The translations under genes and the position numbers were made by a program. Shown piece after piece: positions 30,137-44,942 of a stretch of 64,000 bases of DNA. Position 1 is the first letter of the stretch; every line of letters begins with the position of its first letter. The notes beneath the pieces are model-generated. The model made no database searches. It was not told where the DNA came from and saw only the letters and a program-made list of their open reading frames with translations. The stretch lies in contig NZ_MTQO01000049.1 of the NCBI RefSeq assembly GCF_001984155.1, forward strand, positions 1 to 64,000. Direction: 5' to 3'. Origin of the DNA: Actinosynnema sp. ALI-1.44. GTDB lineage: Bacteria; Actinomycetota; Actinomycetes; Mycobacteriales; Pseudonocardiaceae.

Positions 30137-30282
30137 GGTCGCTCCCGTCCTCACCGACTGCCCCAGAACGTTACAACGCCCATTGACACCATCGCAATGG
30201 CGAACCCATGTCTTCGCAGGTCAAATAGGGTTACCGGGAGTAGATTTCCGGCTCCGGACGCACCGTGGTGAATGCTGGACGG

Positions 30283-30969
30283 GTGAGCACTCCCGATGCC
30301 GTGCCTTTCGACTACGACACCAACCCGGACCGCTACCTCATCGGCTCACGGCTGACCAAGGCGTACTCCCAGGCCAACCTGTACGTGTGGGTGGCGACCC
30401 TGCTGGAGCGGGCCGACCTGGTGCTGGACGTCGGCTGCGCCGAGGGTGTCCTGCGCGAGGCGATGCCTGGCAGACGTGTGATCGGCCTCGACATGGCCAT
30501 GGCGTTCCTGCGCAATCACCCCGCGCCACGCGTGCGGGCCAGCGCGGCGGCGCTTCCGTTCCGCAGCAACAGCGTCGACGCCGTCACCGCGCTGAACATG
30601 CTGTACCACCTGGCTGACCCGGCCCAGGCGTTACGAGAAGCCAGGAGGGTGCTGAAACCCGGTGGTGTCCTGATCGCCTCGACGGTCGCGCGCACCGACT
30701 CCCCCGAGATCTCGGCGTACCGCGTGCGTCTGCCGAGTCCGTTCGACGCCGAGGAAGCGCCGGACATCGTCCGGGCGGTTTTCGGCGACGTCGAGGTGCA
30801 CACGTGGGACGCGCCGCTGGTCACCCTGCCGACCAAGGAGTCCATCAGGGAGTACCTGCGCGCCAGGATGGCAGGCGAGGAGGGTGCCGAGCGGGGCGCA
30901 CGCGAGCTGACGACCCCGTTGACCGTGACCAAGCGCGGCGCGCTAGTGGTCGCCCGTCTGCCTGCTTGA
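30283..30969 (+). CDS. class I SAM-dependent methyltransferase
   Basis: About 228 residues of the Methyltransf_11 type. Motif I is VLDVGCAEGVLREAM, then VIGLDMAMAFLRNH, a motif near AAALPFRSNSVDAVTAL and LREARRVLKPGGVLIAST. Substrate unknown. GTG 30283 (MSTPDAVPFDYD) is preferred; GTG 30265 and 30268 are in frame upstream. The gene contains a UUA leucine codon at 30631-30633, rare in such GC-rich DNA. Its 3' end overlaps the convergent MerR gene by 27 nt. Confidence 0.88.
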   Translation: MSTPDAVPFDYDTNPDRYLIGSRLTKAYSQANLYVWVATLLERADLVLDVGCAEGVLREAMPGRRVIGLDMAMAFLRNHPAPRVRASAAALPFRSNSVDAVTALNMLYHLADPAQALREARRVLKPGGVLIASTVARTDSPEISAYRVRLPSPFDAEEAPDIVRAVFGDVEVHTWDAPLVTLPTKESIREYLRARMAGEEGAERGARELTTPLTVTKRGALVVARLPA

Positions 30970-32197: not shown

Positions 32198-35100
32198 GTG
32201 CGCGGAACCATCTACACGGCTGCTCTGGCCGTGCTCATCAGCGGGGTGGCCGGGCTGCCGGCGACCGCTGACCCTGCCAAGAACCCGTCGGCGGCAAGAC
32301 CCGAACCCGCCAGGACAGTCACCCTGATCACCGACGACAAGGTGACTGTCACCAAGCGCGGCGACACCTGGGACGCCACCGTGACTCCCGCCGAACGGAT
32401 CGGCGGGTCGACCGGCTTCGTCAAGGCCGTCGGGCCCGAAGGCGTCACGGTCATCCCCGAGGACGCCGTCCGGCTGGTCGCCGACGGCAGGCTCGACAAG
32501 GCGTTGTTCGACGTGACCGGTCTGATCAAGCTCGGCTACGACGACGCCCGTACACCGGAGATCCCGCTGCTCGTGGAGTCCGGGTCGGCGCAGTTGCGGC
32601 AAAGCGCCGCCACGCTCGGCAAGGTCACCCGCGACCTGCCCGCAGCGAAGATGACGGCCGTCTCGACGCCCAAGCAGCGGGCCGCCGCCCTGTTCGCGAC
32701 GGCGAAGAACCACAAGGTCTGGCTCAACGGCAAGATGTATCCGACGCTCGACCAGAGCGTCCCGCAGGTCGGCGCACCGGTCGCGTGGCAGGCCGGGCAG
32801 ACCGGCGCGGGCGCCAAGATCGCCGTGCTGGACAGCGGTTACGACAAGGGCCACCCCGACCTGGCCGGGATCGTCAAGGCCGAGAAGGACTTCACGCCCG
32901 AAGGGATCCAGGACGTCGTCGGCCACGGCACGCACGTCGCCGCGACCGCCGCCGGGCGCGGCACAGCGTCCGGCGGGAAGTACACCGGCGTCGCCAAAGG
33001 CGCGGACCTGGTGATCGGCAAAGTGTGCGAGGCCGGTGGCTGTCGGTTCGACGCGATCCTCGACGGCATGCAATGGGCCGCGGACAGCGGCGCCAAGGTC
33101 GTCAACATGAGCCTCGGCGGCGGACCAGGCGACGGCACCGACCCCATCGAAACCGCCGTCAACCGCATCTCCACCGAAAAAGGCACCCTGTTCGTGATCG
33201 CCGCGGGCAACTCCGGTCCGCGCAACAAGGTCTCCACCCCGGCCGCGGCCGACGCCGCACTCGCGGTGGCCAGCGTCGACAAGCAGGACAAGCCCAGCGG
33301 ATTCTCCAGCCCCGGTCCCCGGATCAACGACAGGGCCGTCAAGCCGGACATCGCCGCTCCCGGCGAGGACATCGTCGCCGCACGCGCCAAGGAAACGCTC
33401 GACCAGTACGCCGTCGACGAGTTCCACGCCAAGGTCAGCGGCACATCAATGGCCACACCCCACGTCGCTGGCGCCGCCGCGATCGTGGCCGCACAACACC
33501 CGGACTGGACCGGCCAGCAGATCAAAACCGCACTGATGAGCACCGCACACCCCGTCTCCGCGTCGATCTACCAGCAGGGCGCTGGGCGGCTGGACGTCGG
33601 CCGCGCGGTCACCCAGACCGTCACGTCGCCGACCGGCAGCCTGAGCATGGGTTTCGTCAAGTGGCCGTACCCCAACGAGAAGGTGACCAAGCCGGTCACG
33701 TACAGGAACTCCGGCGGCGCTCCGGTCACGCTCACGCTGGACCTGCAGGACGCCGGTGTCTTCAGCACCGACGTCAAGGAGATCACCGTGCCCGCGCAGG
33801 GCGAGGCGAAGGTCAACGTCACGTTCGCCCCGACCGGCCCGGTCGGGGACTACAACGGCAGGCTGACCGCCCGTAGCGGTGACGTCGTCGTGCAGACCGC
33901 CGTCGGCGGGTCCAAGGAGCCGGAGAGCTACGCGCTGACTCCGAAGCTGATCGACCGCAACGGCGCGGAAAGCACTGGCATGGTGGTCTGGAAGCGGATC
34001 GACGGGACCGAGTACGACATCGCGGCGGGCAACCAGCCGGTGCGCCTGCCCGCAGGGCGCTACGCCTTGTTCAGCGCCGTGCGTACGCCTGCCGGGAGCC
34101 GGCCCGAGTCGACGACCATGCTGGCCGAGCCGGAGGTCGACCTGCGCAAGGACACCACAGTGACACTGGACGCGCGGCCAGGCGTCCGGGTCAGCGCACA
34201 GGTCGAGGAGAAGGACGCGCGCATAGTCGCCGGTGTCACTGCTATCACGGTCAGCGGCGGCCCCGGCGGCTACGACGTGGGGTACCTGAGCGGACTGAAC
34301 GACGAAACCTACGCGGTGCCGACGAAGGGCAACCACAGCCACCTGCGGTACTACAACCGCGCCCAGATGGAGCGGCCGTTGGTCAGGTTGTCCGCGACCA
34401 AGCCGGAATCCTTCGACATCCCGGTCGCCTGGGCGCCGCGTTCGCCGGACTTCGTCGGTGTCAAGGACCTCGCCGCTGTCGACACCGGGCACGCCACGCC
34501 CGAGGAGATCGCGGCGAAGGACGTCAAGGGCGAACTCGCGGCGTTCACGCTGGGGCAGGGCGAGGAAGAAACGTACGACACCAGGGTCAAGGCACTCGTC
34601 GACGCCGGTGCGGCCGCGGTGCTGTTCTACTTCTCCGACTCCGGGTCGATCTCTGCCAAGGACAAGCCCGCCGTGCCGGTGGCGTACACGCTGGACCCGT
34701 CCGGTGCGCGCCTTGCCAAGCTCGGCAACGCCACCGTGCGGCTGGTCGGTCAGACCGCGAGCCCGTACCGCTACGAGTTGGCGTTCCCGCACTTCGGTGG
34801 TGTTCCGGCGGATCTCGCCTACCGGCCACGCAACACCGACCTGGCCACGGTCAAAGCCAAGTACCACAGCATGATCGACAACGGCATCGCGTACGTCGAC
34901 TACCGCACCTGGTCCGGTGACCTGGACATGGGTTCGTGGCTGTGGTCGACAGTGGTTCCGCTGCCGTTGGAGCGGACCGAGTACTACTCGCCCGTCTCGT
35001 GGCAGAACTCGGTGCGGACCTCACCGAGCCTGGACGGCGGGAACGAACACGGCTACCGGGTCGGCGAGCGGACGTACCGCCCGGGTGAGCGGCTCACGGC

Positions 35101-35797
35101 CGAATGGAACAAGTCGGTGGTCGGGCCGGGGCTGTCGGTGTCGCAGGAGGCGTACACCGGCCTGCCGCACCTGGTCTTCCGTGAGGCGGACAAGATCACC
35201 GCTTCGCTGCCGTTGTTCTCCGACGCGGCACGGCACTCCGGGTTCCCCAGGCCGGAGGAGTACAGCTTCGCCGACAAGGGCGACACCGTGCTTTACGCCA
35301 ACGGCAAGGAGATCGGCCGCAGCGGCCAGCCGGGGGACGGCAGCTTCCCGGTCGCGGCCGGAGCAGCGGACTACCGGCTCACCTCGGACGTGACCAGGAC
35401 GAGCCCGATCTGGCCGCTGTCCACAAAGGTCAGTTCGGAGTGGACTTTCCGGTCCGGTCACACGGACAAGGCGACGCCGCTGCCGTTGCTGACGGTCGGC
35501 TTCGACCCGAAGGTCGACATCACCAACCACGCACGGGCCAACACCCTGTTCGCGATACCCGTGCGCGTCGACCGGCAGCCGGGTACTGAAGGTGGTGCGG
35601 CGTCCGTGCGCGCGGTCGAGACGTCGACGGATGACGGCAAGACCTGGCACAGCGCACCGGTTGTGCACATCAACGGCCAGACCTGGGCGTTGGTACACAA
35701 CCCGGCGAGCGGGTTCGTGTCGTTGCGTACCAGTGCTTCCGACAAGGCCGGGAACACGGTCAGTCAGACCGTGATCCGCGCTTACCGTGTGAAATAA
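32198..35797 (+). CDS. large secreted S8 subtilase (first of tandem pair)
   Basis: 1199 residues. Signal peptide 1-about 24 (AALAVLISGVAGLPATA), a propeptide region to about 190, then the subtilisin domain with Asp212 (AVLDSGYDKGHPDL), His243 (VGHGTHVAAT), the oxyanion-region AAGNSG and Ser417 (SGTSMATPHVAGAAA). The remaining about 700 residues are beta-rich: a fibronectin-III-like segment (YRNSGGAPVTLTLDL), a PA-like region (VKALVDAGAAAVLFYFSDSG) and a C-terminal sandwich. GTG 32198 has GAGGGG upstream. It should degrade extracellular protein. The paralogue at 35919 shares long nearly identical DNA patches. Confidence 0.94.
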   Translation: MRGTIYTAALAVLISGVAGLPATADPAKNPSAARPEPARTVTLITDDKVTVTKRGDTWDATVTPAERIGGSTGFVKAVGPEGVTVIPEDAVRLVADGRLDKALFDVTGLIKLGYDDARTPEIPLLVESGSAQLRQSAATLGKVTRDLPAAKMTAVSTPKQRAAALFATAKNHKVWLNGKMYPTLDQSVPQVGAPVAWQAGQTGAGAKIAVLDSGYDKGHPDLAGIVKAEKDFTPEGIQDVVGHGTHVAATAAGRGTASGGKYTGVAKGADLVIGKVCEAGGCRFDAILDGMQWAADSGAKVVNMSLGGGPGDGTDPIETAVNRISTEKGTLFVIAAGNSGPRNKVSTPAAADAALAVASVDKQDKPSGFSSPGPRINDRAVKPDIAAPGEDIVAARAKETLDQYAVDEFHAKVSGTSMATPHVAGAAAIVAAQHPDWTGQQIKTALMSTAHPVSASIYQQGAGRLDVGRAVTQTVTSPTGSLSMGFVKWPYPNEKVTKPVTYRNSGGAPVTLTLDLQDAGVFSTDVKEITVPAQGEAKVNVTFAPTGPVGDYNGRLTARSGDVVVQTAVGGSKEPESYALTPKLIDRNGAESTGMVVWKRIDGTEYDIAAGNQPVRLPAGRYALFSAVRTPAGSRPESTTMLAEPEVDLRKDTTVTLDARPGVRVSAQVEEKDARIVAGVTAITVSGGPGGYDVGYLSGLNDETYAVPTKGNHSHLRYYNRAQMERPLVRLSATKPESFDIPVAWAPRSPDFVGVKDLAAVDTGHATPEEIAAKDVKGELAAFTLGQGEEETYDTRVKALVDAGAAAVLFYFSDSGSISAKDKPAVPVAYTLDPSGARLAKLGNATVRLVGQTASPYRYELAFPHFGGVPADLAYRPRNTDLATVKAKYHSMIDNGIAYVDYRTWSGDLDMGSWLWSTVVPLPLERTEYYSPVSWQNSVRTSPSLDGGNEHGYRVGERTYRPGERLTAEWNKSVVGPGLSVSQEAYTGLPHLVFREADKITASLPLFSDAARHSGFPRPEEYSFADKGDTVLYANGKEIGRSGQPGDGSFPVAAGAADYRLTSDVTRTSPIWPLSTKVSSEWTFRSGHTDKATPLPLLTVGFDPKVDITNHARANTLFAIPVRVDRQPGTEGGAASVRAVETSTDDGKTWHSAPVVHINGQTWALVHNPASGFVSLRTSASDKAGNTVSQTVIRAYRVK

Positions 35798-35818
35798 CGT
35801 GAAGCAAAACTGAAAAAG

Positions 35819-35916
35819 AAAAGAACTCCCCTCGGGGGTGACGCCGCATGATCAACCCGGTACGGTGGGTGACGGGTCGACAGCTGGGGGCGGCTGACCT
35901 CGAGGGGAGTTCTTTT
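35819..35916 (+). promoter_or_regulatory. long-range inverted repeat covering the ribosome site of the second subtilase
   Basis: Sixteen bases AAAAGAACTCCCCTCG (35819-35834) are perfectly complementary to 35901-35916, with 66 nt between. The right arm contains GAGGGGAG, the ribosome binding site for ATG 35919. A transcript starting before 35819 could fold so that the ribosome site is paired; one starting inside the loop would not. A local CCCC/GGGG stem at 35828-35838 may compete. Confidence 0.55.
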
Positions 35917-35918
35917 CC

Positions 35919-38900
35919 ATGCGCGTGCTCACACACGCGGCGATTCTTGCCGTGCTCACAAGCGGATTGACAGTCGCCCCCGCGACTGCGCAACCGCGAA
36001 CGGCTGCCGCACAAGGCAAATCCACAGCAACCGAAACCACAGTCACACTCATCACCGGTGACCAGGTGTCCGTCGCGAGACGGGGTCCCGGCTGGGATGT
36101 GCGGATCCGGCCCGCGGCGCGCCTCGGCGCCCCGGACAGCTTCCTGCACCACGCCGGGGCCGACGGCGTGACGGTCATCCCCGCGTCCGTCGCGCCGCTC
36201 GTCCGGTCCGGTCAGCTGGACCGCGCGTTGTTCGACGTCACCAGCCTGATCAGGCTCGGCTACGACGACGAGCACACGCCGGACATCCCGCTGCTCGTGG
36301 AATCCGGTTCCGACCAAGCGAGAAGCAGCCTCGCCGCGCTCGGCAAGGTCACCCGTGACCTGCCCGCGGTGAAGATGACGGCGGTCTCCACGCCCAAGCG
36401 CGACGCGGCGAAGGTCTTCCAGACCGCGAAGAACCACAAGATCTGGCTCAACGGCAAGGCGTTCCCCACGCTGGACCAGAGCGTCCCGCAGGTGGGCGCC
36501 CCTGGTGCGTGGCAGCAGGGCCATACCGGCGCGGGTGCGACCATCGCCGTGCTGGACACCGGGTACGACAAGGGCCACCCCGACCTGGCCGGGATCGTCA
36601 AGAGCGAGAAGGACTTCACCGGCGAGGGCATCCAGGACGTCGTCGGCCACGGCACGCACGTCGCCGCGACCGCCGCCGGGCGCGGCACGGCGTCCGGCGG
36701 GAAGTACACCGGCGTCGCCAAAGGCGCGAACCTGGTGATCGGCAAGGTCTGCGTGACGTTCGGCTGCCCGTTCGACGCCATCCTCGACGGCATGCAATGG
36801 GCCGCGGACAGCGGCGCCAAGGTCGTCAACATGAGCCTCGGCGGCGGACCAGGAGACGGCACCGACCCCATCGAAACCGCCGTCAACCGCATCTCCGCCG
36901 AAAAAGGCACTCTGTTCGTGATCGCCGCGGGCAACGGCGGGAGCTCGAAGGTTTCCTCACCGGCCGCTGCCGACGCCGCACTGGCCGTCGGCAGCGTGAA
37001 CAAGCAGGATGTGCGCAGCCCGTTCTCGTCACAGGGGCCGAGGTCCAAGGACTACGCGGTCAAGCCGGACATCGCCGCGCCTGGTGAGGACATCGTGGCG
37101 GCACGGGCCAAGGGAACGCTGGACGACGTTGCCGTGGACGAGTTCCACGCCAAGATCAGCGGCACCTCGATGGCCACACCCCACGTCGCTGGCGCCGCCG
37201 CGATCGTGGCCGCACAACACCCGGACTGGACCGGCCAGCAGATCAAAACCGCGCTCATGGGCAGCGCGCACCCGGTCGCGAACGCCACGATCTACCACCA
37301 GGGCAACGGTCGCCTTGACGTGAACCGCGCGGTCAGCCAGACCGTCACCACGACTGTCGGCAACCTGAGCCTCGGCTACATCAAGTGGCCGAACCCCGGG
37401 ACTGTGCTGAGCAAGCCGTTGACGTACAAGAACTTCGGCACGGCACCGATCACGCTTTCCCTGTCCGCCAGCGACGCGGCCTTCAAACTGAGCGCCGCCG
37501 AGGTGACCGTGCCCGCCGGTGGCGAGGCCACGGTGACGGTCTCGTTCGACGGACCGCAGGCCGCTCCCGCTTCGTACGGCGGTCTGGTGCTGGCCAAGGG
37601 CGGGACGACCGAGGTGCGCACGGCGGTCGGTGCGACCAAGGAGCCGGAGAGCTACGACCTCACGCTGCGGTCGGTCGACCGCGACGGAGGCGTGAACGGC
37701 CCCAGCCTCATCGTGGTGCAGAACCTCGACAAACCGGAGGTTTACTTCGTCCCGGTGTTCGGCGGTGACACGATCCGGGTGCCCGCGGGTCGCTACGCGG
37801 TGATGTCGTTCATCCTCACCCCGACCGTACCGGTGGGCTCGACCACCCAGATCGCCAAGCCCGAGCTCGTGGTCAAGAGCGACACGACAGTCGAACTCGA
37901 CGCGCGTCCCGGCGTCCGGGTAAGCACGTCGATCGACCAGCCGGACGCCCAGCTGCACCGCACCCTGTCCGGGCAGATGATCAAGGTCGGCGACGCCATG
38001 GCAGGCGGCTTCGGGCCTGGCGACAACCTCTACGCCGTGCCGACGACAGGCAAGTTCGACCACTTCATGTACTTCGACAGCGCGTCGTACGAGCAGCCGC
38101 TGATCAAGCTCACAGTCACGAAACCGGAGCAGTTCCAGCCGGTGGTCGACTGGGTTCCCGATTCGCCGCGGATCACCGACACCCGCGAGCTGGCCACAGT
38201 GGACGTCGTCAGGGCCAGGCCGGAAGACCTGGCGCAGCGCGATGTCCGCGGCAAGATCGCGGTGTTCACGATCGGGGCGGGTGAGGAACAGGAGTTCATC
38301 CCACGGCTCAAGGCGTTGCACAGCGCGGGCGCCACGGCCGCGTTCTTCTACTTCACCGACAGCAACGGCGTGGCACTCGCCGAGGCACCAGCGCTGCCAA
38401 CGATGTACGCGGTGGACGACTCCGGCCCACGGCTGGCAAAGCTGGGCACCGCGACCGTGAAGGTCGAGGGGATTGCCGCGAGCCCGTACCACTACAAGCT
38501 CACCTTCCCGAGCCACGGCGCCATCCCGGCCAACCTGACCCACCAGGCCCGGATCAGGGACCTCGCCGAGATCCGCGCCACCTACCGCGCGGTCGGGCCG
38601 CAAGCGAACGTGTACGCCAACCCGAGCGCGAACGGCTTCCCGTTGGTCGGGCCCGGCGGCGCGCCGATTCCACTGCCGACCAGCCGAGTCGAGCGCTACA
38701 CGCCGGAGACGGTCAGCTGGCAGCACTCGTCACGCATCGATCGGCAGTACATCAACACCAGTGATGAGAAGGTCTATCCACGCGGGTCGAAGTCCACAGC
38801 GGACTGGTACAAGGCCGTGCTCGGCCCCGGCCGGGCCCAGCTGACCCGCACAGGCGCCAAGCTCACCGCAGACCTCCCCCTGTTCACAGATGCCGGACAG

Positions 38901-39413
38901 CACACAGGCCGCGCCGGAGGAACCGACAAAGGCACCACCGTGCTGTACGCCAACGGCAAGGAGATCGGCCGCAGCGGCAGGCCGGGATCCGGCGAGTTCA
39001 CCGTGGGCAACGACCCAGCGAAATACCGCCTCATCACCGAGGCAACCAGGGAAAACCCGGCATGGCAACTATCCACAAAGGTCACAGCGGAGTGGGACCT
39101 CCCCCACGTCAGGACCGGCCCCCTGCCCACGATCACACTCGACCCCAAGGTGGACAGCACCAACACCACCAAAGGCGGAACATACACAGCCATCCCACTC
39201 CAACCAGGCAAGGGCGGCACAGTCCAAGCAGTCGACGTATCCACCGACGACGGCACAACCTGGCACAAGGCACCACTGGTACAAGCCCACAACCAATGGT
39301 GGGCAGTCGTATGGAACCCATCTAACGGGTTCGTGTCATTACGCGCCCAGGCGTCCTACCCAGACGGCAGCGCAGTCGCCCAGACAGTCATCCGCGCCTA
39401 CCGAGTGAAGTAA
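35919..39413 (+). CDS. large secreted S8 subtilase (second of tandem pair)
   Basis: 1164 residues with the same layout as the gene before it: signal peptide ending near VAPATA, a propeptide, Asp213 (AVLDTGYDKGHPDL), His244 (VGHGTHVAAT), Ser417 (SGTSMATPHVAGAAA), then about 700 residues of beta-sandwich and PA-like sequence (LKALHSAGATAAFFYFTDSN). ATG 35919 lies 3 nt after the inverted repeat. The last about 400 nt use many A-ending codons (aca, cca, caa) unlike the rest, and a UUA leucine codon occurs at 39339-39341 where the first copy has TTG. A terminator hairpin follows at 39430. Confidence 0.94.
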   Translation: MRVLTHAAILAVLTSGLTVAPATAQPRTAAAQGKSTATETTVTLITGDQVSVARRGPGWDVRIRPAARLGAPDSFLHHAGADGVTVIPASVAPLVRSGQLDRALFDVTSLIRLGYDDEHTPDIPLLVESGSDQARSSLAALGKVTRDLPAVKMTAVSTPKRDAAKVFQTAKNHKIWLNGKAFPTLDQSVPQVGAPGAWQQGHTGAGATIAVLDTGYDKGHPDLAGIVKSEKDFTGEGIQDVVGHGTHVAATAAGRGTASGGKYTGVAKGANLVIGKVCVTFGCPFDAILDGMQWAADSGAKVVNMSLGGGPGDGTDPIETAVNRISAEKGTLFVIAAGNGGSSKVSSPAAADAALAVGSVNKQDVRSPFSSQGPRSKDYAVKPDIAAPGEDIVAARAKGTLDDVAVDEFHAKISGTSMATPHVAGAAAIVAAQHPDWTGQQIKTALMGSAHPVANATIYHQGNGRLDVNRAVSQTVTTTVGNLSLGYIKWPNPGTVLSKPLTYKNFGTAPITLSLSASDAAFKLSAAEVTVPAGGEATVTVSFDGPQAAPASYGGLVLAKGGTTEVRTAVGATKEPESYDLTLRSVDRDGGVNGPSLIVVQNLDKPEVYFVPVFGGDTIRVPAGRYAVMSFILTPTVPVGSTTQIAKPELVVKSDTTVELDARPGVRVSTSIDQPDAQLHRTLSGQMIKVGDAMAGGFGPGDNLYAVPTTGKFDHFMYFDSASYEQPLIKLTVTKPEQFQPVVDWVPDSPRITDTRELATVDVVRARPEDLAQRDVRGKIAVFTIGAGEEQEFIPRLKALHSAGATAAFFYFTDSNGVALAEAPALPTMYAVDDSGPRLAKLGTATVKVEGIAASPYHYKLTFPSHGAIPANLTHQARIRDLAEIRATYRAVGPQANVYANPSANGFPLVGPGGAPIPLPTSRVERYTPETVSWQHSSRIDRQYINTSDEKVYPRGSKSTADWYKAVLGPGRAQLTRTGAKLTADLPLFTDAGQHTGRAGGTDKGTTVLYANGKEIGRSGRPGSGEFTVGNDPAKYRLITEATRENPAWQLSTKVTAEWDLPHVRTGPLPTITLDPKVDSTNTTKGGTYTAIPLQPGKGGTVQAVDVSTDDGTTWHKAPLVQAHNQWWAVVWNPSNGFVSLRAQASYPDGSAVAQTVIRAYRVK

Positions 39414-43208: not shown

Positions 43209-43458
43209 GTCGTCAAGGGTCGCACAGACGGTCCCACCTGGCCCGTCGGTCCGATCATCGGGCCACTCAATCCGTCTATAACGTTTTGGAAATGTTTTGT
43301 ACCCGATGAATACGACCAGTCGCCGATTGACCGCCGTAAGTGATATCAATACGGAGCGTTTTCGGTTGATCGCCTGGCGTGAATGCGAGTCGGTCCGGAC
43401 ATGAGAACGGGTAGTCCACGTCCATCGCGTTTCATGGACATGAACTACCCGGTCAGCG

Positions 43459-43532
43459 TGCCCCCGACCGGATTCGAACCGGCACTCCAACCCTTTTAAG
43501 GGGCTTGCCTCTGCCTGTTGGGCTACGGGGGC
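43459..43532 (-). tRNA. tRNA with UAA anticodon and short variable loop
   Basis: Read on the minus strand from 43532: acceptor GCCCCCG pairs with CGGGGGC, discriminator A at 43459, no encoded CCA. The T arm is GCCGG-TTCGAAT-CCGGT. The anticodon stem is AGCCC/GGGTT with loop CTTAAAA, giving anticodon UAA (reads UUA, Leu). The variable region is only 5 nt (GGAGT), whereas bacterial tRNA-Leu normally has a long variable arm. The D stem is 3 bp plus a C-A mismatch. It may be a rare class I tRNA or a decayed gene. Confidence 0.85.
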
Positions 43533-43613
43533 GCGTGAAGCCTAAACGCTCCGGCGCTCCCTTTGGAGCCACTTTGCTCGAACTCATCCGGCTGGCCTAT
43601 TCAATTGGTCCGG

Positions 43614-44942
43614 TCAGCTCTTGGCCGCGCGGGTGAATTCAGTCTTCGGGTCCTGGATCTGTCCCATCGAGATGACCTCGCGCCGGAAGACGAATGCGCC
43701 GAGCCAGTCGAACATGATCCGGACCTTGCGGTTGAAGGTGGGCATCCGCGACAGGTGGTAGGCCCGGTGCAGCCCCCACGCGAGGAAGCCCTTCAGCCGG
43801 ATCACGCCGAGCACGTCCGTCACACCCTTGTACAGGCCCAGTGACGCCACAGAGCCCTGGTACTTGTGCACGTAGGGCTTCTGCTTCTTGCCGCGCAGCG
43901 CGGCCAGCACGTTGGGCACCAGCCGCTTGGCCTGACGGACGGCGTGCTGCGCCGAGGGGCTGCACGTCGCCGTCGGGTCCTCGGACGTCCGCGACAGGTC
44001 CGGGACGGCGGCGTTGTCACCGGCCGCCCAGGCGTCCGCGAGGCCCTCGATCTGCAGCTCGGCCGTGCACCGGACGCGGCCGCGTTGGTCGAGCGGCAGG
44101 TCCGTGTTGGCGAGGACCGGGTTGGCCTTCACACCCGCGGTCCAGATGATCGTGTCGGCGTCGAACTCGGTGCCGTCGTCGAGCACGACGTGCCCGCCTT
44201 CCAGCGACTTCGCCCGGGTGTCCAGGAAGACCTGGATACCGCGCTTCTCGAGCACCTTGACGGTGTAGACGCCCATCTTGGCGCTGACCTCGGGCATGAT
44301 CCGGTTGGACGCCTCGACGAGCACCCAGCGCATGTCCTTCGCGCTGAGGCCCTCGTAGTACCTGATCGCGTAACGGGCCATGTCCTCGAGCTCGGCGAGC
44401 GCCTCGACGCCCGCGTACCCGCCGCCGATGACCACGAAGCTGAGCATCTTGCGGCGCAGCTCCGGGTCGGCGGTCGTCGCGGCCTGGTCAAGACGCGAAA
44501 GCACGTGGTTGCGGAGGTAGATCGCCTCACCGACGGTCTTGAACCCGATGCCGCGCTCCTCAAGGCCCGGGATCGGCAGCAGCCGCGACACGGACCCGAG
44601 CGCACTGATCAGCAGGTCGTACTCGACCAGCTCGGTGTGCCCGTCCAGCGACTCCACGGTGGCCGTCTTGGTCGCGTGGTCGATCTTGGTCACACGGCCG
44701 GTCAGGACGTGGCAGCGGCGAAGCACGTTGCGCAGCGGCACGACCACGTGCCGCGGCTCGATGGATCCGGCTGCCGCCTCCGGGAGGAACGGCTGGTACG
44801 TCATGTGCGGCTGCGGGTCGACCACTGTCACCGACGCTTCGAGCGACCGCAGTTTCTTCTGCAGGCCCAACGCGGTGTACAGCCCGACATAGCCACCGCC
44901 GACGATGAGGATCCGCTTCGGCTGTTTCTTGCCCTTGGCCAT
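43614..44942 (-). CDS. ndh: type II NADH dehydrogenase (NDH-2)
   Basis: 442 residues. A monotopic flavoenzyme that passes electrons from NADH to menaquinone without proton pumping. Two Rossmann motifs are seen: ILIVGGGYVGLYTALGLQ (FAD) and FVVIGGGYAGVEALAELE (NADH). The quinone-site-type segment SAQHAVRQAKRL and the C-terminal amphipathic region (GFLAWGLHRAYHLSRMP, then VRIMFDWLGAFVF) fit membrane docking. ATG 44942 gives MAKGKKQPKRILIVGGG. The length is close to mycobacterial Ndh. The gene ends 81 nt upstream of the tRNA on the same strand. Confidence 0.94.
   Translation of the reverse strand: MAKGKKQPKRILIVGGGYVGLYTALGLQKKLRSLEASVTVVDPQPHMTYQPFLPEAAAGSIEPRHVVVPLRNVLRRCHVLTGRVTKIDHATKTATVESLDGHTELVEYDLLISALGSVSRLLPIPGLEERGIGFKTVGEAIYLRNHVLSRLDQAATTADPELRRKMLSFVVIGGGYAGVEALAELEDMARYAIRYYEGLSAKDMRWVLVEASNRIMPEVSAKMGVYTVKVLEKRGIQVFLDTRAKSLEGGHVVLDDGTEFDADTIIWTAGVKANPVLANTDLPLDQRGRVRCTAELQIEGLADAWAAGDNAAVPDLSRTSEDPTATCSPSAQHAVRQAKRLVPNVLAALRGKKQKPYVHKYQGSVASLGLYKGVTDVLGVIRLKGFLAWGLHRAYHLSRMPTFNRKVRIMFDWLGAFVFRREVISMGQIQDPKTEFTRAAKS

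Follow-up and report, generated by a model that had tools for sequence, protein, structure and literature searches.

The window analysed here is a stretch of 64,000 nucleotides from Actinosynnema sp. ALI-1.44, and the sole tRNA called in it by ARAGORN is a tRNA-Leu(taa) at 43458-43532 on the minus strand. The same gene spans the full Rfam RF00005 model at 55.9 bits, against a cut-off of 29. The tRNA and its immediate surroundings comprise the following features.

43408..43451, minus strand: hairpin directly downstream of the tRNA (18-bp stem, -34 kcal/mol, z -5.15)
43459..43532, minus strand: class I tRNA-Leu(UAA) (ARAGORN, RF00005 and structural slices)
43496..43498, minus strand: anticodon UAA (ARAGORN and sequence)
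43539..43544, minus strand: -10-like box TAGGCT, 12 to 7 nt upstream of the tRNA
43614..44942, minus strand: type II NADH dehydrogenase-like gene, directly upstream of the tRNA on the same strand (Pfam PF07992; NDH2_C just under its cut-off)

The tRNA measures 74 nt up to the discriminator A73, and CCA is absent from the gene. A preliminary description of this DNA had proposed a minus-strand cloverleaf with a UAA anticodon; ARAGORN and RF00005 agree on this fold, with the anticodon loop aligned as CUUAAAA and no other triplet in the anticodon. The class I shape proposed there was likewise borne out by the structural slices, which give a variable loop of 5 nt (GGAGU; GGAGT in the DNA), short of the 10 nt or more that define a class II arm. 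The acceptor/T arrangement is 7/5 rather than the 8/4 or 9/3 of Allo-tRNA and tRNA-Sec-like molecules. The leucine-identity features that we looked for are all present: A14, A15-U48, G18G19, A20a, a 3-bp D stem and A73, with U48 and A73 read from the structural slices. The D arm consists of the 3-bp stem 10-12/23-25, followed by A14 A15, G18 G19, A20a, G21 and A22. C13 does face A22, as the D-stem mismatch of the preliminary description implied, and the same apposition is found in all five class I leucine tRNAs of the genome. It belongs to the leucine-type D arm, and its use as a sign of decay is not supported.

Sequence conservation was examined among relatives, as had been recommended. The tRNA is identical in seven of the eight genomes of the genus, the eighth (G035) differing at two positions, and a class I UAA gene occurs in 60 of 60 sampled genomes of the family, 51 by the strict pattern and nine by a wider one. 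Assignment of this family to the Pseudonocardiaceae is supported by Sciscionella sediminilitoris (G011) and the family member G076, whose matches fall at identical coordinates. Covariation was scored on 106 distinct class I Leu(UAA) sequences. Of their 2120 stem cells, 2080 are paired, and double changes are numerous; when the 3' halves were shuffled, the mean was 1569 paired cells and the maximum 1629. The sequences come from all fetched loci, which include phage loci and a few others besides those of actinomycetes. Ten of 116 distinct sequences were left unparsed: nine are intact-looking but have a T loop, or a loop length, that the expression used did not cover, and one is a truncated copy in genome G121. 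All 106 carry U48, and their variable loops are 5 or 6 nt long (the parse allowed 5-7 nt); A73 is found in 100, G73 in five and T73 in one. The G73 sequences, unusual for a leucine tRNA, are L057, L069, L085 and L086, all four from Phycicoccus, and L101. The D-arm columns belonged to the search pattern, and uniformity of the D arm across this wide set is therefore circular; the only unselected test of the D-arm core is the tRNA set of the Actinosynnema genome itself, considered below.

These data bear on whether the gene might be a decayed or silent relic. The cloverleaf of the naked RNA is not favoured by energy alone (z -1.68), and the relative G121 holds the truncated copy, both of which could be taken to favour decay. 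Unmodified tRNAs commonly miss the cloverleaf when only energy is considered. The near-invariance of the sequence within the genus, the paired stems with their double changes, and the use of UUA by a genome in which no other UAA tRNA was found all argue against a relic. Because C13/A22 is common to the five class I leucine tRNAs and the stems covary, decay is unsupported; we consider it very unlikely and rejected it on these grounds. In G121, the copy broken off in the anticodon arm lies 78 kb from a second match (L305 and L184; C1:2666663 and 2744541) and looks like an integration site. Two class I Leu(UAA) matches 22-31 kb apart were also seen in G459, G475 and G396.

A strict sigma-70 scan and a terminator scan at the tRNA locus found no site. 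A TAnnnT motif like that of the TAGGCT box lies within -22 to -3 of 60 of 90 class I Leu(UAA) loci compared to 18 of 628 control spans, the loci being related and thus not independent. The downstream hairpin is present in the other genomes of the genus, and in the loci L293 and L294 the corresponding stretch has changed in sequence with the pairing kept, as judged by eye; it is perhaps a terminator lacking a T run. The NADH dehydrogenase-like gene lies upstream of the tRNA in 22 of the 61 loci with enough sequence (eight of the 22 belong to the genus) and is absent in 39. The loci that have it include Sciscionella, Blastococcus, Microbacterium, Pseudoclavibacter and Naasia, and its occurrence in such distant genera points, in our reading, to old vertical descent.

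We also surveyed the leucine tRNAs of the 11.7-Mb genome, for which RF00005 gave 63 matches. Five are class I: UAA (the window gene), CAA and UAG as single genes, and CAG and GAG within an array. Three are class II: CAG, GAG and, within another array, CAA. All eight were named by ARAGORN on the fetched stretches. A class II leucine D-arm pattern matched exactly these three class II genes. The first array (L036; G000:C36:207610-208176) contains seven tRNAs, including a Cys tRNA of 72 nt and the class I Leu(CAG) and Leu(GAG) genes; of the eight genomes of the genus, seven have class I CAG and six have class I GAG. The second (L040; G000:C37:102826-103186) contains Gly, Gln, class II Leu(CAA) and Ser, and class II Leu(CAA) is found in seven of the eight genomes.

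The preliminary description had suggested that the class I tRNA would provide a second way to read UUA, and had advised a check for a separate class II tRNA-Leu(UAA). Neither a class II Leu(UAA) nor a class II Leu(UAG) was found in the genome by RF00005, by ARAGORN on the fetched stretches or by the class II D-arm pattern, and no class II body in which the D arm GGAA..GNAGACNC precedes a UAA anticodon was matched by pattern. The idea of a second way is thus not upheld, on the basis of patterns and RF00005 for this genome and of patterns for the 60 genomes of the family, in none of which was a class II Leu(UAA) matched. As the only UAA-anticodon tRNA found in the genome, the class I tRNA is therefore taken as the reader of UUA, and the preliminary description is supported in that a class I-shaped tRNA with a UAA anticodon very probably reads this codon.

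The leucine-type core is found in all eight leucine tRNAs of the genome and in none of 57 other distinct tRNA predictions. The eight share A14, A15-U48, G18 G19, A20a, G21, A22, A73 and the three-pair D stem; the class I and class II members differ at position 9 (A versus G), pair 12-23 (C-G versus G-C), position 13 (C versus G) and in the variable region. One protein of the genome lies above the leucyl-tRNA synthetase (LeuRS) family cut-off, its best solved matches being leucyl-tRNA synthetases, and the weaker matches resemble related synthetases.

We also examined how the two kinds of Leu(UAA) are distributed, using patterns that leave the variable loop unconstrained. Among 100 relatives, the strict patterns matched class I Leu(UAA) in 67, class II in eight and both in none. 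Across 394 genomes of the class, class I was matched in 156 and the class II bldA type in 58, one of the latter (G376) looking like chance; no genome had both, against approximately 23 expected under independence. A family that we take to be Streptomyces-like (f33) has the bldA-like class II gene in 39 of 39 genomes and the class I gene in none. When the wider pattern was applied to 79 genomes negative with both strict patterns, 36 matched, 34 of them with loops of 5-6 nt, one with 8 nt and one with 13 nt. A last search of the remaining 43 silent genomes yielded eight class II, seven class I, one 8-nt (G177) and two 9-nt (G172 and G302) candidates and 25 genomes without a class. The Leu(UAA) candidates L429 and L444 (G302 and G172), L431 and L206 have variable regions of 8-9 nt and may be intermediate between the two classes. 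A Deinococcales metagenome-assembled locus (L090) holds an array with short leucine tRNAs (CAA, TAG and GAG) whose D arms are of another type, perhaps an independent class I leucine design.

The distribution speaks to the possibility that the window gene is an accessory, recently gained mobile tRNA standing beside a class II Leu(UAA) that the pattern and Rfam searches overlooked. The assembly is in 54 contigs, and class I leucine tRNAs are known from phage tRNA arrays. A pattern spaced for a 6-nt variable loop recovered 57 viral loci with the anticodons UAA, CAA, UAG, GAG, CAG and AAG (49 of these loci hold one or more additional tRNAs) and 53 loci in named genomes, all Leu(UAA); these counts are no measure of prevalence, because the pattern misses genes with a 5-nt loop such as that of the window. 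The phage and mobile-array tRNAs have the same D-arm signature as the window tRNA, but with the 6-nt loop, and they are extra genes, mostly arrayed, whereas the window gene stands alone on the chromosome with no class II counterpart found. Its place behind the same NADH dehydrogenase-like gene in several genera also weighs against recent gain. RF00005 was sensitive enough to catch a class II Ser tRNA of this genome at 47.7 bits, and by pattern the class I gene never accompanies class II Leu(UAA) in the 394 genomes. We rejected the accessory origin on these grounds and regard it as very unlikely.

The meaning of UUA was assessed from codon alignments of 554 ORFs from 124 loci, selected by a crude GC-frame filter, in which the codons were masked and the homologues taken from other loci. 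UUA stood opposite leucine at a weighted 0.70, based on 23 positions with at least two homologues each, some of which represent one gene in several species. The corresponding values were 0.69 for UUG (409 positions), 0.59 for CUA (40) and 0.56 for CUG (3542), and the codons AUA and UUU stood opposite Ile at 0.58 and Phe at 0.70, respectively. Seven UUA positions with a single homologue, three opposite Leu and four opposite Pro, were dropped, and nine loci (arrays or those with non-actinomycete titles) were left out. A locus from a genome with a 13-nt class II-like arm (L207 in G160) was kept and contributed no UUA position. In a noisier alignment of all six-frame ORFs, UUA was assigned to leucine at 0.56 over 40 positions.

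Within the window, UUA accounts for nine of 19145 codons under a crude choice of ORFs. The two UUA codons listed in the preliminary description, at 30631-30633 and 39339-39341, are both in frame, in the ORFs 30265-30969 and 35919-39413. The second of these ORFs is one of two large neighbours (window 32198-39413, plus strand) of 1199 and 1164 amino acids, and UUA is codon 1141 of the second, which the preliminary description calls a subtilase. CUG, CUC and CUU, mainly the codons of the remaining class II tRNAs, make up 1442 of 1665 leucine codons in the window ORFs, again by the crude choice. We saw no sign in this genome of UUA serving as a developmental switch.

These results also address charging by a synthetase other than LeuRS, which the preliminary description had entertained. 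An active tRNA carrying another amino acid, with UUA recoded, would fit the class I body and the G73 found in a few relatives. The window gene has A73, its core is exclusive to leucine tRNAs within the genome, and apart from the long arm the gene carries every leucine determinant that was tested. With these determinants in place and leucine still opposite UUA in the alignments, another synthetase is unsupported; recoding was rejected on these grounds, and we judge it very unlikely.

Taken together, the data are best explained if the window gene encodes a working, leucine-charged class I tRNA that is the sole reader of UUA in the genome and an old chromosomal replacement of a class II (bldA-type) tRNA, a reading to which we assign a probability of about 0.87. 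The gene, its fold, conservation and covariation, the exclusion of class II by pattern and the leucine meaning of UUA are direct observations; that the tRNA is transcribed, charged by LeuRS and used on the ribosome, and that replacement ran from class II to class I, we infer. The single bacterial-type LeuRS would charge the tRNA with leucine by way of A73 and the corner of the D and T loops (A14, A15-U48, G18G19 and A20a), such that leucylation would need no long variable arm, and the charged tRNA would then read UUA. On the chromosome, the class I tRNA would have supplanted the class II bldA-type tRNA-Leu(UAA) long ago, the single CAA and UAG genes being class I as well in the genus.

In E. 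coli tRNA-Leu, A73, A15-U48, G18G19 and A20a matter for charging; neither how the long arm folds nor its sequence correlates with charging, and armless variants remain active (PMC9976931). The same source describes charging of animal mitochondrial tRNA-Leu(UUR) by LeuRS through A73 and A14 (PMC9976931); that tRNA lacks the long arm like the window tRNA, but is mitochondrial and partly unfolded. A review of non-canonical tRNAs classes tRNA-Leu as class II (PMC7609411). Streptomyces bldA shares with the window tRNA the UAA anticodon and the rare codon, but belongs to class II: its variable arm is long, and its D arm reads GGAA..AGAC. The bldA tRNA also has a leucine-type D loop and A73.

Short-loop leucine tRNAs are already known incidentally in print and in phage annotation. 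A cluster-borne short-loop tRNA-Leu(TAG) is noted in mycobacteria (PMC6582537). Another report names tRNA-Leu-2, -3 and -5 of Mycobacterium tuberculosis as those with long variable loops, which suggests that the other tRNA-Leu of this species are short-looped (PMC11541572). Mycobacterium phage Bonray has annotated tRNA-Leu(caa) and tRNA-Leu(gag) of 75 and 74 nt, with D arms outside the pattern used here. A literature search with little reach into subscription journals returned no report of a class I tRNA-Leu(UAA) gene that has taken the place of the class II one on the chromosome.

To gain information on the other isoacceptors, we probed 43 genomes, 19 chosen by kinship and 24 named through loci of the 6-nt-loop pattern. 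Class I UAA was present in 43 of 43 (G035 and G312 through the wider pattern), by construction, because the named genomes and most of the others were picked as carriers. Class I CAA was found in 23 and class I UAG in 17, all 17 lying within the 23. By pattern, class II UAA was matched in none of the 43 genomes, and class II UAG in none of the 17 with class I UAG. Class I UAA occurs alone in Janibacter, Phycicoccus, Microbacterium and Mumia, with CAA in Gordonia and Lolliginicoccus, and with CAA and UAG in Umezawaea, Sciscionella and all eight genomes of the genus. The patterns miss some isoacceptors: neither a class I nor a class II CAA gene was matched in Actinomadura (G008) or in a Mycobacterium sp. 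(G009). Among genomes with class I UAA, the nesting suggests an order in which UAA would have come first, then CAA and then UAG. It is a tentative and rather doubtful extension that actinomycete leucine tRNAs passed stepwise from class II to class I by adopting the class I leucine tRNAs of phage arrays, perhaps because armless tRNAs evade toxins or defence nucleases that take hold of the class II type; phages as donors and this selective advantage are both conjecture.

The long arm is thus missing, with the leucine core retained, from the only UUA-reading tRNA found across a family. An armless Leu(UAA) provides a natural test of what LeuRS requires, and tools that classify tRNAs by arm length may be misled by it. 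The wider developmental role of bldA may not extend beyond the Streptomycineae, as stated in one study (PMC4255298). The actinomycetes divide into bldA-type and class I groups, and given this split it can be asked whether developmental control through UUA depends on the kind of tRNA that reads it.
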